DNA from: Caldifarciminota bacterium
GTDB taxonomy: Bacteria; Hydrothermota; Hydrothermia; WGAB01
DNA length: 52,662 bases
Assembly: GCA_015490555.1 (NCBI GenBank)
Contig: WFXO01000089.1
Location: 1 to 52,662, forward strand
Direction of reading: 5' to 3'
Below the pieces are notes generated by a model. That model saw nothing but the letters and a program-made list of their open reading frames with translations. It did not search any database and had not been told where the DNA came from. The translations under genes were made by a program, and so were the position numbers. Shown one piece after another: positions 4,943-10,919 of the stretch. How positions within the stretch are numbered: the stretch's first letter is position 1; every line of letters begins with the position of its first letter.

Positions 4943-5251
4943 TCAGACGAAGTGAGGTAGCACTGGGGCTGGCCGAGATCTTAACCTCATCAGCCTCCTG
5001 GAACCCGATAACAGCCGATCAATTGTTGCTCGGGAAATCCGTAACCGTCGATCCCTCGTCTGATCACTTTCTGCAGGCCTCCGGGCTCGAATCCTCATCT
5101 TCCGTCGGGCATGCCTCAAAAGCCAGGACGCATACGAACGGTTGTATCCTGTCAGGTTCACAAACTCATCCAGGATCATCGTCTTCTCCTTCTTGGACCT
5201 TGCCGTCCGGTACCTCCTGGCATATATTTGGGTCAGTTTCTTTCGGGTCAT
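4943..5251 (-). pseudogene. Deleted remnant of an integrase-core (DDE) insertion-sequence transposase
   Basis: About 102 residues are readable. The N-terminal part (MTRKKLTQIYARRYR, then LDEFVNLTGYNRSYASWLLR) matches the helix-turn-helix head of a family of large integrase-core IS transposases. It is followed almost directly by ISRATIDRLL, a motif that from memory of the family lies roughly 70 residues further on in intact copies. The piece between and the entire DDE catalytic core are missing. This is an internally deleted, non-functional relic. It lies at the upstream edge of the DndC-HerA-NurA cassette, and marks the locus as a site of past insertion. Confidence 0.72.
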
Positions 5252-5275
5252 CAGATCTAACTCCTTTCTCATCAT

Positions 5276-5876
5276 GCACCTCCCCGTGTAGAGTTCTGCC
5301 GTGGAGGTTTTTACACCCTTTCGTATAGATTTTTCAATGAGCCAACGATCCCGATTCCGGTTAGATTTTTGATGAGAAAATCCGTTACTACACCCTCCCA
5401 TCTGTGGGGCTTTATCATAAAATCAACATGGCTTGGGGGAAGAAAGCTACAATCGGTTTAAAGCACCTTCATCAGGCTGATGCCACGTGCAAAAACAATC
5501 CACACAAAAGAGTTATCTCCGCCCATAAGGTGTGGGGGCAGCGGGCGGTTCAATATGAATTCAGCGACTATTATCTGGACACGCAACCTCACTGGGTGGA
5601 TAAGGGGGAGTGTACCTCCTTCGAGCGTACCACTGGCAACGCCGATCTGTACGTTGTGCACCGGCAAGAGCCAGTTCATCACAGATTCTCCCTTCCCCCG
5701 CCCCAGGAAGTCCAATTCTACAAGCACGAGGCGGGTGGGAGCAACCACCTCTTACTCGGAAGTCCCCGGGTGTTAATGAACTCCCTATCGGCGAAGAAAA
5801 GGGTAGTGGGTAAGGCCTGTCTATACAAACTTCCCTTACCCACGAGCAGATCAAATTTTGTACTCAAGGGGGTGGA
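5276..5876 (+). other. 600-base stretch without a recognisable gene
   Basis: Between the transposase relic and the DndC-like gene several reading frames are open on both strands, none with a recognisable domain or convincing ribosome site. One frame (5404-5880) ends in a stop that overlaps the DndC ATG, which could be chance. The stretch probably holds IS debris plus the promoter of the cassette; a TATACA at 5822-5827 is the only -10-like hexamer near the gene and has no good -35. Confidence 0.5.
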
Positions 5877-7013
5877 ATGACACAGTTACTTGAGTTGATT
5901 CACAACATAGCTGTGAGCAGGCCTGTAGGGGAACTCCGTAGAGACGATGGTAATCGTCTCCAGTTACGCATGGATGAATCAGTACGAGTTTTAGCTTCAG
6001 TCGTTGAGCGCGGATTTGATCATTGGATTTTGACTTTCTCGGGAGGCAAGGATTCTACAACCACCGTAATCTTAGCGTTAGAGACGTTATTACAGGAAGG
6101 GCTACCCGTCAACCGTGTCGATATAGTGTACTCAGACACTTTGATAGAAATTCCCGTTATCCAGCGTTACGCTGTGGAGTTCTTGAAATTCCTTGCCGAC
6201 TTCGAGCGTCTTCAACCGCTACCTCTTTACTTTCATGTCGTTCGCCCAGCATTGGAAGATAGGTTTTGGGTTTGCTTGTTGGGGAAAGGGTATCCGCCGC
6301 CACACCAACGGTTTCGTTGGTGCACCAAACGTCTCAAAATCAAGCCAGTGGAAGATGCCCTGAAAGCTTATACTCAGCCAAACCGGACAGTAATTTTGAC
6401 CGGAGTTCGTTTTGGCGAATCCTTGGATCGAGATCGACGTTTGAGCTATTCTTGCCGAAGAGGAGGAGAATGTGGCCAGGGGGCTTGGTTCCAATACAGT
6501 GCTCGTCTTCAAGCGGCTTATATGGCTCCTATTGCGTATTGGCGGGAGTGCGATGTATGGGACTTTATAAATTATATTGCCCCTGGATGGGGATACCCTA
6601 CCCATGTTCTTGAGCGGGAGGTTTACAACGGCCGCGAGACACGCTTTGGGTGCTGGATGTGTACGGTGGTGCGCCAGGACAAAGCCATGGAGAAAATTAC
6701 ATCCCGGCCAGAATGGGCTCATCTTCGGCCCTTGTTGGAATTCCGCAAACGCGTCCTTCACCAGGTTTCTCTGTACAATGCACGCTATCCTCGCCCCAAT
6801 GGGAAACCCGGTCGACTCTCTTTGGAAACTAGAAAACAAATTCTTTCCGAACTCCTTCAACTCCAAGAGGATCTAGATATGGTCTTGATTGACCAAGAGG
6901 AAATCGAATGTATTAAAGCGTTGTGGTCGGATCCAAAATATTTGAAGTACAAGGAGGAAAATAATGATTCGATGGAAGGACCCATCGAAACGTCTCAAAA
7001 ACGAGGATATTGA
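5877..7013 (+). CDS. dndC-like: DndC-like PAPS-reductase-fold sulfurtransferase
   Basis: Protein of 378 residues of the PAPS reductase/ATP pyrophosphatase fold, closest in motifs to DndC, the Fe-S sulfurtransferase of DNA phosphorothioation. The P-loop SGGKDS is at residues 55-60, VYSDT at 84-88, RWCTKRLKIKP at 147-157, ILTGVRFGES around 173-182, and the DndC signature RFGCWMCTVV at 256-265, followed by NGKPGRLSLETRKQIL. Cysteines 149, 193, 199, 259 and 262 are candidate iron-sulfur ligands. The ATG follows a short purine-rich site (gggggtgg). The 3' end overlaps the HerA-type ATPase by 50 bases and NurA follows, so the three genes form one unit. No DndA, DndD, DndE or restriction (DndFGH, SspE) gene is nearby. 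The gene is more AT-rich than the flanking housekeeping genes, suggesting transfer. Whether it sulfurates DNA is inference. Confidence 0.85.
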   Translation: MTQLLELIHNIAVSRPVGELRRDDGNRLQLRMDESVRVLASVVERGFDHWILTFSGGKDSTTTVILALETLLQEGLPVNRVDIVYSDTLIEIPVIQRYAVEFLKFLADFERLQPLPLYFHVVRPALEDRFWVCLLGKGYPPPHQRFRWCTKRLKIKPVEDALKAYTQPNRTVILTGVRFGESLDRDRRLSYSCRRGGECGQGAWFQYSARLQAAYMAPIAYWRECDVWDFINYIAPGWGYPTHVLEREVYNGRETRFGCWMCTVVRQDKAMEKITSRPEWAHLRPLLEFRKRVLHQVSLYNARYPRPNGKPGRLSLETRKQILSELLQLQEDLDMVLIDQEEIECIKALWSDPKYLKYKEENNDSMEGPIETSQKRGY

Positions 7014-9081
7014 AGAACTAATCAAGGAGTTCGATCGGTGGCTTAAGCGGGAGAAAAAGATCAGTAATTATCCTAATGCCCGTTACGATCGAGAAAAGCG
7101 CAAAAGGGAACTGGGAAACATTATTAATGTCAACAAGAAATATCCCACTCTGACACGCATTTCTCAAGAGTTAGCAATTCGGTTACAAAATGCGAGTGAT
7201 GTCGATCTAGAGATCCTGCAGGATATCCAAGAGTACTTTGAACAAAGCCTGGGCATCCGTGTCTCGCTTCCAGAAGAGGTCATCTCGGCGGAAAAGGAAG
7301 AAAAGAAACCCGCTGCTGGAGTCGAGACAGGAGCTGAAGAAGAGCGCCAAGAAAGAGAAATCCGGTGGATTGGGCGAGTTGCTCCAACATTGCGCAGCCC
7401 CATCACGCCAAGTGAATTCACATTTTGGGTGAAGAACGAGGAAGAGATACACATCGAGGTGGGCACCATCGTAACTGCCCACGGTCGAGGTGTTCGGGTA
7501 ACGGGTCTAGTCACTGACCTTCAAGCTTCTAGTGATGTCCGGGAGGTTTTGGATAGCTTTTATGCTCACGCTTTCGGCCGGCCGGATGTCGAAATGCCGA
7601 CCCAAATCCCTGTGGTCGTAAGCGCAAGGGCCGAAGTGGTGCGTCGTAGTGACGGCCGGATGGAGCCCATCCGGGGGACCTGGCCGGTGACCTTTGCAAG
7701 TGCGAAGGAGATCCGAGAAGCTTACGGGGCACAAATCGCACCAGAGGACGAAATCCTTGCTGGGTTCACTTACGACGGTCAAAAAGATCCGGTCCCTATC
7801 GGGCTCCATTCTCGGTACGTGGTTGGCTATGAGGCGGCGCATGTCAATATCTCCGGAGCCTCAGGAGTAGCCACAAAGACCAGTTATGCGTTGTTCCTCC
7901 TGTATGCGCTTTTGGCCCACAGCGAACAATATAAAAGAAATATCGCTGCCATCGCGTTCAACGTTAAAGAAGCTGACCTGATGTTCATCGATGGACTCCC
8001 CACTTGGGAGGAGTTACGTCAGTTGGAAAATCATCCTCGCTGGGGTCCATCGGTCCGACTCTGGCGCCAGGCCCGAGATGATTACGGTCTGGACCCAATT
8101 CGCTGGGCTCAAGAAAGACGGTTCCGCTTCTTTGCCCCGATGCACTTCCGTCCGGAGGGCGGGGTCCTCAGCCAGCGCAGAGACAACGTGGAAGCCTTCA
8201 GCTACGGACTACAATCACTAATCGACGCGGGCGTTGGGGCCTTATACGCTCTCTTCGATCCCAACGACCTGGATGAGAAGTCCCTGGCGCTGATCGCCTC
8301 CATGGCGGATTTAGCTAAACACAAGGGGTATACGTTTGAAAAGCTTATCCAGGAAGTTAAAAGGGCAATGGGGAACTCGCGTACAAGCAGGGGAGAATGG
8401 TTCCAGCTCGAAGATGGTGTCCAACATCACAAGGCCACTGCCAACAAGATCTTGAACCGCCTACAGCATGCCTTGGAGAACCAGCTGAAAGGAGTCGTCT
8501 TGAGGGCGGAGAATACCGATCGTCCTATCTCTCTGAAAGAACTACGACCGGGGCAACTTTGGGTAGTGGACATCACCCAGCTCAGCGACAAAGGGCAAAG
8601 GCTGATCTTTCAAACGGTCGTGCGCACAGTGTTCCGGCTGCTGGAGGAACGGAAGGCAGCGAAGATTACGGGACGTTGGGAAGACCAAGAGCTTGAGCAG
8701 TTCCCCGAGCACGTCGTAATCTTTGTCGATGAGCTTAACAAGTTCGTCCCCGCAGGACGGGAATTTTCCGTTTTAAAGGGAGACATCGTTGAGATCGCGG
8801 CGAGGGGGCGCAGCGTAGGGCTCTCCCTCATCGGGGCACAACAGCTCGCTTCCAAAGTAGATGAGGAAGTGCTGGCCAACACTTCCACGTTTGCCGTGGG
8901 TCGAAGCCACCCCGTAGAGATCCGTAAACCTCCTTACGGTTGGCTGGCCGAAGGGCTCAAGCAGAAAGCAACTCTCCTGGACAAGGGCTGGATGCTGCTG
9001 TGGCATACTCTGCACAATCGTCCGGTTTTAGTGCACTTTCCCATCCCTCTTCATCGCTTGAAGAAGGAGATTGAAGCCTAA
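6964..9081 (+). CDS. herA-like: HerA-type AAA/FtsK-like DNA translocase ATPase
   Basis: ATPase of 705 residues. Residues 1-130 are charged and helical; 130-290 look like a HAS-barrel region as in HerA. The Walker A is atypical, GASGVATKTS at 298-307, with Thr304 where the invariant glycine before the lysine is expected. The Walker B is VIFVDELNKF with Asp589-Glu590, and ARGRSVGLSLIGAQQ at 613-627 carries the HerA arginine and sensor glutamine. The start is fixed by a perfect aaggagg site inside the end of the DndC-like gene (50-base overlap). HerA proteins form hexameric rings that pump DNA, usually with the NurA nuclease, and a NurA-like gene follows 15 bases downstream. Function in this cassette is inferred. 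Confidence 0.85.
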   Translation: MIRWKDPSKRLKNEDIEELIKEFDRWLKREKKISNYPNARYDREKRKRELGNIINVNKKYPTLTRISQELAIRLQNASDVDLEILQDIQEYFEQSLGIRVSLPEEVISAEKEEKKPAAGVETGAEEERQEREIRWIGRVAPTLRSPITPSEFTFWVKNEEEIHIEVGTIVTAHGRGVRVTGLVTDLQASSDVREVLDSFYAHAFGRPDVEMPTQIPVVVSARAEVVRRSDGRMEPIRGTWPVTFASAKEIREAYGAQIAPEDEILAGFTYDGQKDPVPIGLHSRYVVGYEAAHVNISGASGVATKTSYALFLLYALLAHSEQYKRNIAAIAFNVKEADLMFIDGLPTWEELRQLENHPRWGPSVRLWRQARDDYGLDPIRWAQERRFRFFAPMHFRPEGGVLSQRRDNVEAFSYGLQSLIDAGVGALYALFDPNDLDEKSLALIASMADLAKHKGYTFEKLIQEVKRAMGNSRTSRGEWFQLEDGVQHHKATANKILNRLQHALENQLKGVVLRAENTDRPISLKELRPGQLWVVDITQLSDKGQRLIFQTVVRTVFRLLEERKAAKITGRWEDQELEQFPEHVVIFVDELNKFVPAGREFSVLKGDIVEIAARGRSVGLSLIGAQQLASKVDEEVLANTSTFAVGRSHPVEIRKPPYGWLAEGLKQKATLLDKGWMLLWHTLHNRPVLVHFPIPLHRLKKEIEA

Positions 9082-9096
9082 AGGAACTGAGAAGCC

Positions 9097-10398
9097 ATGG
9101 ACGGGCGCGTCCCGCAAGCCCTCGAAGGCTTTTTTAGAGAGCTAAAAACTCGCGGAGTTCCTGCTTCGGGCGTGGAGCTCTCCGAGGAGGAACAAGCGTT
9201 CCCCTTGACCTTTGTTGATGAGCGGGAGTGTACCCCGGTGGAGGACAAGTCCTGGGAACCCATTAAGGTGGAGGCGGAATGTGAAGAAGTCGTTTTCACA
9301 GCGTTTCTCGACGGCGTTCAGCGGACAATCATGCTCCCCTATCGGATTCTGTTGCCCAATGGGGCGCAGGTTCCCCTGCACGTAGCCCACATTGCCGCCG
9401 GCGTCTTTCTCCGAGATGAGAGTGGTCGTCTCTATTTGGAGCCCGACTTCGTTGCCGCCCGCCTACTCCTGCTCGGTCCATTTCAAGGTATTCGCAAGGC
9501 AGGAGGGATATCCTTGGAAGGTGAAGACGTCACATGGGACACGAGCATAAAGACGTTTGCATTTACGGATGAACTAAACGAATGGATCGTGTGCGACACG
9601 ACTTTCCGTGGGACCGAGGAAGACCGTCATGAACGGCGCGAGGGGGCCTTGCTCGGAGATGAGCTATTTAAAGAAGGGCTAATCCGATCACGGGCACAAG
9701 GACGAGTCGCGACCCTTCGGCAGCGACTGGAGTTCGCCGTATTAGCAAAGTTTCGCAAGGAGCACCCCGACGATTTCATTTTAGTGGATGGCCCGCTCTT
9801 CTTCTTGGATAAGTGGCGCAGAAAGGCAGCCAATGTTCTGGGCCCTCTATTGGACGAGCCACGCGAGAGCCTCCTGGAAGATGTGCTGTTGAGGAATGCT
9901 GTTGGACTTATCAAAACTCACCGGTTACGCCCGAAACATCCGGAAAAGGTCGTGCGTATCGGCCCAGGCCAGCGTTCCCCAGTGGTGCGGATCTCCGATG
10001 AGGTAGACATCAAGGGAAGGCGAGGAGAGCTGGATGAGGAAGGAAGCTATGGAGGAGCACACCTCACGTGGTATACGCGACTGCGCTTCCCCGAGGGAGG
10101 CTTTCTCTATGGGCTGCGGGGGTTAATTCGTCTGGACGTCCATCGCATAACCTTCGGAATTGAGCGCGCAGACGCTTTACAACCTGAAACCTTTCACCCC
10201 TACAAGCCAAAAGTGGATGGGATCACGCAAGCGGTATGGCGTGAGCGCTGGCCCGGCATACACAGAAGTGGTGACTCTCGATCAAGCACCCAAATTTATC
10301 CCATTGAACAACTGGAGAAGGCGCTCAAAGCTAGCTTATACCCAAGAAGATTACTTGCCCATTTACTTGACATACCGGTCTCTGCGGCCAATCAATAA
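9097..10398 (+). CDS. nurA-like: NurA-like nuclease, partner of the HerA-type ATPase
   Basis: Protein of 433 residues with a NurA domain pattern. FLDGVQRT gives Asp72; RLEFAVLAK gives Glu212; LVDGPLFF gives Asp231; VGLIKTH (269-275) and RLRFPEGG/GLIRLDV (328-347) follow. Asp72, Glu212 and Asp231 fit the three metal-binding acidic residues of NurA, and the C-terminal YPIEQLEKALKASLYP resembles the end of the family. About 100 extra residues lie between the first and second acidic residues. It starts 15 bases after the HerA-type gene with a weak ribosome site, so is probably coupled. NurA works in HerA-NurA complexes as a 5'-3' exonuclease and single-strand endonuclease; here it is the likely effector or processing nuclease. 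Confidence 0.75.
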   Translation: MDGRVPQALEGFFRELKTRGVPASGVELSEEEQAFPLTFVDERECTPVEDKSWEPIKVEAECEEVVFTAFLDGVQRTIMLPYRILLPNGAQVPLHVAHIAAGVFLRDESGRLYLEPDFVAARLLLLGPFQGIRKAGGISLEGEDVTWDTSIKTFAFTDELNEWIVCDTTFRGTEEDRHERREGALLGDELFKEGLIRSRAQGRVATLRQRLEFAVLAKFRKEHPDDFILVDGPLFFLDKWRRKAANVLGPLLDEPRESLLEDVLLRNAVGLIKTHRLRPKHPEKVVRIGPGQRSPVVRISDEVDIKGRRGELDEEGSYGGAHLTWYTRLRFPEGGFLYGLRGLIRLDVHRITFGIERADALQPETFHPYKPKVDGITQAVWRERWPGIHRSGDSRSSTQIYPIEQLEKALKASLYPRRLLAHLLDIPVSAANQ

Positions 10399-10610: not shown

Positions 10611-10919
10611 ATGGGAAACAAAGGATTGAAAATAGAAAAGAGAGAAAATGGGGAATGGGTCTCCATCTCACTGGAGGAGGCCCATCAAATCATTTCTAAG
10701 GATTATGCCAAGGGGTACAAAAACGTTGAACAATGGATTTATCGAGCACTGGAGGCTGGAGCCACTGTTGGAAGACTTCGGTTGACGGATCATCTGGAAA
10801 GATACCAAAAATTTGTATTAGAACATGGGGAGGGGGAATTCAACAAAATGATGATTGGGCTCTGGTTCTGGCTGAACCGGATCCACCGAAATGACGAGAT
10901 CGAGAAGAAAGGAAACTAA
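10611..10919 (+). CDS. Small hypothetical protein
   Basis: A 102-residue soluble, charged protein with no family I recognise; it looks mainly helical (SLEEAHQIISKDYAKGYKN, NVEQWIYRALEAGA). A short aaagg site precedes the ATG. It lies alone between the NurA-like gene and rmuC, each about 200 bases away, in AT-richer DNA, so it probably belongs to the accessory island. It could be a regulator or an accessory part of the cassette, but nothing in it shows this. Confidence 0.5.
   Translation: MGNKGLKIEKRENGEWVSISLEEAHQIISKDYAKGYKNVEQWIYRALEAGATVGRLRLTDHLERYQKFVLEHGEGEFNKMMIGLWFWLNRIHRNDEIEKKGN

Follow-up and report, generated by a model that had tools for sequence, protein, structure and literature searches.

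The window analysed here, a stretch of 52,662 nucleotides that makes up one contig (C89) of a 2.16-Mb genome, carries a three-gene cassette encoding a DndC-like sulfurtransferase, a HerA-type ATPase and a NurA-type nuclease. We take the genome as WOR-3 from its nearest named relative, the WOR-3 bacterium UBA5631, which is placed in the same class. The composition of this trio, which the earlier note took for an undescribed system, is largely already known as that of Tdp, a phosphorothioation and phage-defence system of Thermus (PDB 8wet/8wfd/8y1k; An et al. 2025, as cited in PMC13251355 and PMC12345140). Judging from sequence comparison, the new part is the combination, in which a TdpC relative is joined to a HerA-NurA pair other than TdpA and TdpB. 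We consider the cassette to be probably a self/non-self system of Tdp-like type whose effector has been exchanged, and in which TdpC-like self-marking would be coupled to HerA-NurA destruction of unmarked DNA.

Organization and proteins of the cassette

The cassette comprises a tdpC-like gene (5877..7013) for a PP-loop sulfurtransferase of the DndC/PAPS-reductase family (378 aa), a herA-like gene (6964..9081) for a hexameric DNA translocase (705 aa) and a nurA-like gene (9097..10398) for a nuclease (433 aa). All three genes lie on the plus strand in one tight operon, and the catalytic motifs of all three proteins are intact. Coordinates, strand, profile matches and operon spacing confirm the single unit that the earlier note had read; its description of the genes as overlapping applies to the first two, which share 50 bp, and not to the last two, which are separated by 15 bp. 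A ribosome-binding-like sequence was read ahead of the tdpC-like gene (5861..5876, plus strand), and such sequences also precede the HerA start (AAGGAGG) and the NurA start (AAAGGA).

The DndC-like protein matches DndC of PADLOC (E 1.4e-58), Pfam PAPS_reduct (E 2e-9) and TIGR03183, the NCBI equivalog profile for DndC (E 1.5e-53), where its 182.3 bits fall under the required DndC score of 290.4 bits; a PDB sequence search with this protein returned no matches. Its motifs, encoded on the plus strand, are the PP-loop SGGKDS (residues 55-60, positions 6039-6056), FRWCTKRLKI (Cys149), SCxxGGECGQG (Cys193 and Cys199) and RFGCWMCTVV (Cys259 and Cys262), and C149, C193, C199, C225, C259 and C262 are invariant in an alignment of five cassette homologues. 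The SC..GGECGQG motif is common to the window protein and Thermus TdpC, which are 48-52% identical, and phage PAPS reductases have a similar one; in true DndC its place is taken by ECP...SCG. In a maximum-likelihood tree, the window protein pairs with its counterpart from UBA5631, a WOR-3 member of another family of the class (99/99), and this pair is sister to the Thermus TdpC clade with moderate joint support (90/85). True DndC (90/97) and the phage PAPS reductases (93/99) form separate clades. Motif and tree thus point to a TdpC relative set apart from true DndC.

The Dnd system (DndABCDE with DndFGH) shares with the cassette a DndC-family enzyme bearing the PP-loop and RFGCWxCTVV, and DndH is also a HerA-type ATPase. 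The window protein differs in scoring under the DndC cut-off, in lying outside the DndC clade and in having no ECP...SCG cysteines. Of the DndC-based DNA-sulfur module that the earlier note proposed, compact marking combined with HerA-NurA stands as the best reading, and the attribution of the sulfurtransferase to Dnd does not. A search for DndD gave no match in three genomes that included the window's own (G000, G052 and G053), with signals in nine control genomes; a DndE search also gave no match in the genome, but the control genomes were equally without signal. The earlier note had itself set against its proposal the possibility that the complete set of Dnd genes lies in another part of the genome; this was rejected because DndD was not found.

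The window HerA has D. radiodurans HerA (7f6d) as its best match (E 1e-32) and scores 364 bits against a Deinococcus-type HerA profile built in this analysis; its Pfam HerA match is sub-threshold and its HAS barrel is recognized at E 7e-5. The P-loop GASGVATKTS (residues 298-307, positions 7855-7884), the Walker B stretch VVIFVDELNK (residue 584) and the arginine-finger stretch RGRSVG (from residue 614), all on the plus strand, are as in HerA relatives. Ahead of the HAS barrel, both WOR-3 cassettes encode a HerA N-terminal extension of ~135 residues (6964..7368, plus strand, in the window), whereas the nine other proteins compared, eight HerA and TdpA, have only 5-28 aa there. The extension has no significant match in Pfam and contains no known domain.

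The window NurA reaches only E 0.016 in Pfam, which is under threshold, and a PDB sequence search with it returned no matches. It scores 65 bits against the Deinococcus-type NurA profile, and a profile of the two cassette NurA proteins aligns with bacterial NurA adjoining HerA genes at a profile-profile probability of 99 (E 2e-18, 277 columns). On the plus strand, it encodes a DG at Asp72, a catalytic-motif residue (9310-9312), a kept Glu212, a DG at Asp231 (9787-9789) and Lys273 (9913-9915). In an alignment of 13 NurA proteins, Asp231 is conserved in 12 and Lys273 in 10. D53 and K201 are required by drNurA (PMC9960219), and by motif we take them as the equivalents of Asp72 and Lys273. An AlphaFold model of NurA built from two sequences had a pLDDT of 29 and was discarded. 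With the Deinococcus/Thermus-type HerA-NurA (PDB 7f6d; PMC9960219), the window pair shares its type by profile and its catalytic motifs; it differs in its operon with a sulfurtransferase, in the HerA extension and in the larger NurA.

By profile comparison, neither protein is of the TdpA or TdpB type. The window HerA did not match the TdpA profile at E 10 and gave an hhalign probability of 4%; the window NurA did not match the TdpB profile, with an hhalign probability of 5% over 22 columns to TdpB (8wet_G). In the reverse direction, TdpA and TdpB gave no match to the Deinococcus-type HerA and NurA profiles. Since these two defining parts were looked for and homologues of them, for TdpA beyond membership of the HerA superfamily, were not found, we call the cassette Tdp-like and not Tdp.

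The cassette has a G+C content of 0.525, against 0.59 and 0.57 on its two flanks. The earlier note's observation that it is AT-richer than its neighbours is correct, and the difference is modest, as 23% of the 4.5-kb stretches in the window are equally low; a mobile element judged by base composition was rejected on account of this weak signal. The nearby 152-aa ORF that the same note called a transposase relic (4943..5401, minus strand) gave no significant match in family searches; the identification is plausible by eye, and the ORF would be a boundary element at most. Directly 3' of NurA, a 102-aa ORF on the plus strand (10611-10919) has no family match and no counterpart in the UBA5631 cassette. 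A block of RmuC, adenosyltransferase and O-methyltransferase genes lies just downstream of the cassette, and in another genome of the same family (G055) this block is conserved and the cassette is missing.

Recurrence in WOR-3 and Deinococcota

UBA5631 carries the trio in the same order, at 54/59/50% identity. When the first 20 kb of the window were compared with the 22-kb UBA5631 locus, the trio proved to be the only genes in common, which indicates that their linkage is not due to chance; plain chance neighbours were rejected because the trio recurs both in UBA5631 and in Deinococcota. Within WOR-3, a close HerA together with an intact NurA was found in two of 147 genomes, the window's own and UBA5631. 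A single-sequence HerA scan of genome contigs gave one match, the UBA5631 locus, and the NurA profile matched, among 390 genomes of 303 genera, the two cassettes and a remnant in G053 only.

The genome with the remnant represents a sister species in the genus of the UBA5631 genome, and what is left there is the C-terminal part of NurA (last 210 residues, 89.5% identity). On its contig 5 (L033/L034), a BREX operon with BrxP, BrxC, PglZ and BrxL lies between a conserved DUF488/methyltransferase flank and the NurA remnant, and the presence of BrxP assigns it to type 4. Type 4 BREX is itself a phosphorothioation system (PMC12839542). It resembles the cassette as a phosphorothioate-type defence with a PAPS-reductase-family enzyme, BrxP, and differs in the four genes just named, none of which the cassette contains. 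Its location beside the NurA remnant, at the site equivalent to that of the trio in UBA5631, marks this site as a defence locus, where one phosphorothioate-type system has apparently replaced another. Two further WOR-3 genomes (G126 and G143; L035, L036) have a DndC-like gene on the true DndC side, followed by a histidine-kinase/Hsp90-like ATPase (~545 aa) and a third gene product of 335-344 aa without a Pfam match; no DndD is present in the stretch read, and this is a separate recurrent setting for a DndC-like gene.

A profile made from the two DndC-like sequences detected strong relatives (365-385 bits) in one Deinococcota genus and a neighbouring one. We take the carrier genus to be Thermus from its TdpA/TdpB identities and its prophages. 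Six Deinococcota genomes have a DndC-like gene followed by a NurA-like and then a HerA gene; in one of the six, G473, an insertion sequence interrupts the NurA gene, and G489 has a decayed copy of the cassette. In G312, the HerA-like protein shows 100% identity to TdpA of PDB 8wet, and the NurA-like protein to TdpB of the same entry, in both cases over the full deposited chains. The link to Tdp was made through the names of PDB entries 8wet, 8wfd and 8y1k, and literature searches for DndC, HerA and NurA together yielded no description of the trio. Among the genomes searched, the TdpC/TdpB/TdpA set proper was seen in one Deinococcota family only. The trio composition thus occurs in Deinococcota as well as in WOR-3, a recurrence in a distant phylum of the kind that the earlier note had proposed to look for. 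In G469 (contig 5, L102), the Tdp cassette lies directly 3' of two genes, one for a type ISP restriction-modification enzyme of 1604 aa and one for a UvrD-like helicase, forming a defence island.

The window cassette and Tdp share three adjacent genes on one strand, a PP-loop DndC-like enzyme, a HerA-superfamily ATPase and a NurA-like nuclease, and neither includes DndD. They differ in gene order (C-HerA-NurA in the window, C-NurA-HerA in Tdp), in the failure of the window HerA and NurA to match the TdpA and TdpB profiles, in the 135-residue HerA extension, which TdpA does not have, and in the WOR-3 host.

The same type of NurA-HerA pair is also found beside DNA methylases. Contig C10 of the window's genome (L037, 3-8890) carries a second HerA-NurA pair, flanked on one side by an Eco57I-like N6 methylase of 957 aa and on the other by an N6/N4 methylase, and in G312 (L074) an Eco57I-like protein, NurA and HerA are encoded in a row. 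These islands share with the cassette a DNA-modification enzyme next to NurA-HerA and differ in using an N6/N4 methylase (Eco57I-like) for marking instead of a sulfurtransferase, so that the locus on contig C10 is the methylation-based counterpart of the cassette. Both examples support the notion that HerA-NurA serves as a shredder of general use, combined with one mark or another.

TdpC-type genes in phages and plasmids

TdpC-type genes occur alone in prophages of the same Deinococcota family, in IMG/VR contigs and in Thermus phage Tsatsa; they are 81-97% identical to the copies in the main Thermus cassettes. At these loci (L016 in Thermus phage Tsatsa, L042-L044 and L108-L110), neither HerA nor NurA accompanies the gene, and both are likewise missing from its surroundings in 24 additional IMG/VR contigs that carry more distant members. 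The pattern resembles that of phage-borne orphan modification enzymes such as orphan methylases, and retention of TdpC without a nuclease is what one would expect if the mark is protective. TdpC of Thermus phages looks like a means of phage self-marking against Tdp.

Scans of IMG/VR with HerA and with NurA found none, and NurA was not found in plasmids. The HerA proteins matched in plasmids and phages were all generic, encoded either next to NurA and SbcCD or by a Marinitoga virus. Cyanobacterial and Chloroflexota plasmids (L009, L011, L012) encode a NurA-like protein and HerA followed by SbcD and SbcC/SMC, a four-gene end-processing operon. DndC-like orphans bearing ECGQG, on a Deinococcus plasmid, in a Microcystis phage and on a Pseudomonas plasmid (L017, L018, L020), each adjoin a DNA methylase gene.

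Proposed mechanism and alternatives

TdpC reportedly forms the phosphorothioate by way of an adenylated intermediate, and DNA that does not carry it is degraded by TdpAB. We hypothesize that in the WOR-3 cassette sulfur would be supplied to the TdpC-like protein by a housekeeping cysteine desulfurase, as the earlier note had suggested; genes of the family (Aminotran_5 proteins) are present in the genome. The TdpC-like protein would adenylate and then thiolate phosphates of the host's own DNA. NurA would sit as a dimer at the exit of the HerA hexamer, and the complex would load on DNA, pump it and digest it; sulfur marks would stop HerA-NurA, and incoming DNA without marks would be destroyed. 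For the sulfur chemistry, as for protection and degradation of DNA, this model draws on the published Tdp system and on the biochemistry of D. radiodurans HerA-NurA. As the HerA and NurA of the cassette are not TdpA and TdpB, the sensing mechanism of Tdp cannot be carried over; a candidate for the mark sensor is the N-terminal extension of HerA.

Elsewhere, bacterial HerA-NurA is known to resect DNA ends. A repair module, in which HerA-NurA would resect ends and the DndC-like protein would modify or protect them or have a non-defence redox or sulfur role, accords with the Deinococcus repair type of the window HerA and NurA and with the end resection performed by drHerA-NurA (PMC9960219). We nevertheless regard it as unlikely: a further HerA-NurA pair is encoded on contig C10 of this genome, the occurrence of the cassette is sporadic (two intact copies in 147 WOR-3 genomes), the equal composition in Thermus is Tdp, and the site is occupied by BREX in the sister species.

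Still less credence is given to the two alternatives that change the role of the sulfurtransferase. That phages carry orphan TdpC-like genes, and that cleavage of phosphorothioated DNA has been described for some enzymes (PMC12707154), would suit an attack on marked DNA, in which HerA-NurA destroys the phosphorothioated DNA of such phages and the cassette enzyme acts as a regulator or decoy; this enzyme is, however, intact with all its cysteines and would mark the host DNA as well, which makes such an attack improbable. We attach the same low probability to an action on nucleotides or RNA, which would make the trio an abortive-infection device and not a restriction-modification system. Among PP-loop sulfurtransferases, TtuA, for instance, thiolates tRNA, and the structure model of the DndC-like protein, of moderate confidence (pLDDT 68), is matched about equally by APS/PAPS reductases and TtuA tRNA sulfurtransferases, but its closest relatives are TdpC proteins of a DNA phosphorothioation system.

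Returning to the Tdp-like system with an exchanged effector, we give about an even chance to a more specific scenario, in which TdpC is a plug-in that was paired at least two times with unrelated HerA-NurA, and mark sensing in WOR-3 arose independently, perhaps via the new HerA N-terminal domain. The cassette would then represent a second, undescribed Tdp subtype.

Tdp is a very compact phosphorothioation defence. If a relative of TdpC works with a different HerA-NurA, the marking enzyme alone would define the system and the shredder would be exchangeable, as with methylases and restriction enzymes, and a comparison of the two forms would reveal which features a DNA-pumping nuclease needs for reading sulfur marks. 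Thermus phages with TdpC alone make phage self-marking simple to test. Together, the presence of the module in WOR-3, its exchanged effector and the phage copies of TdpC turn the reading of sulfur marks into a testable question.
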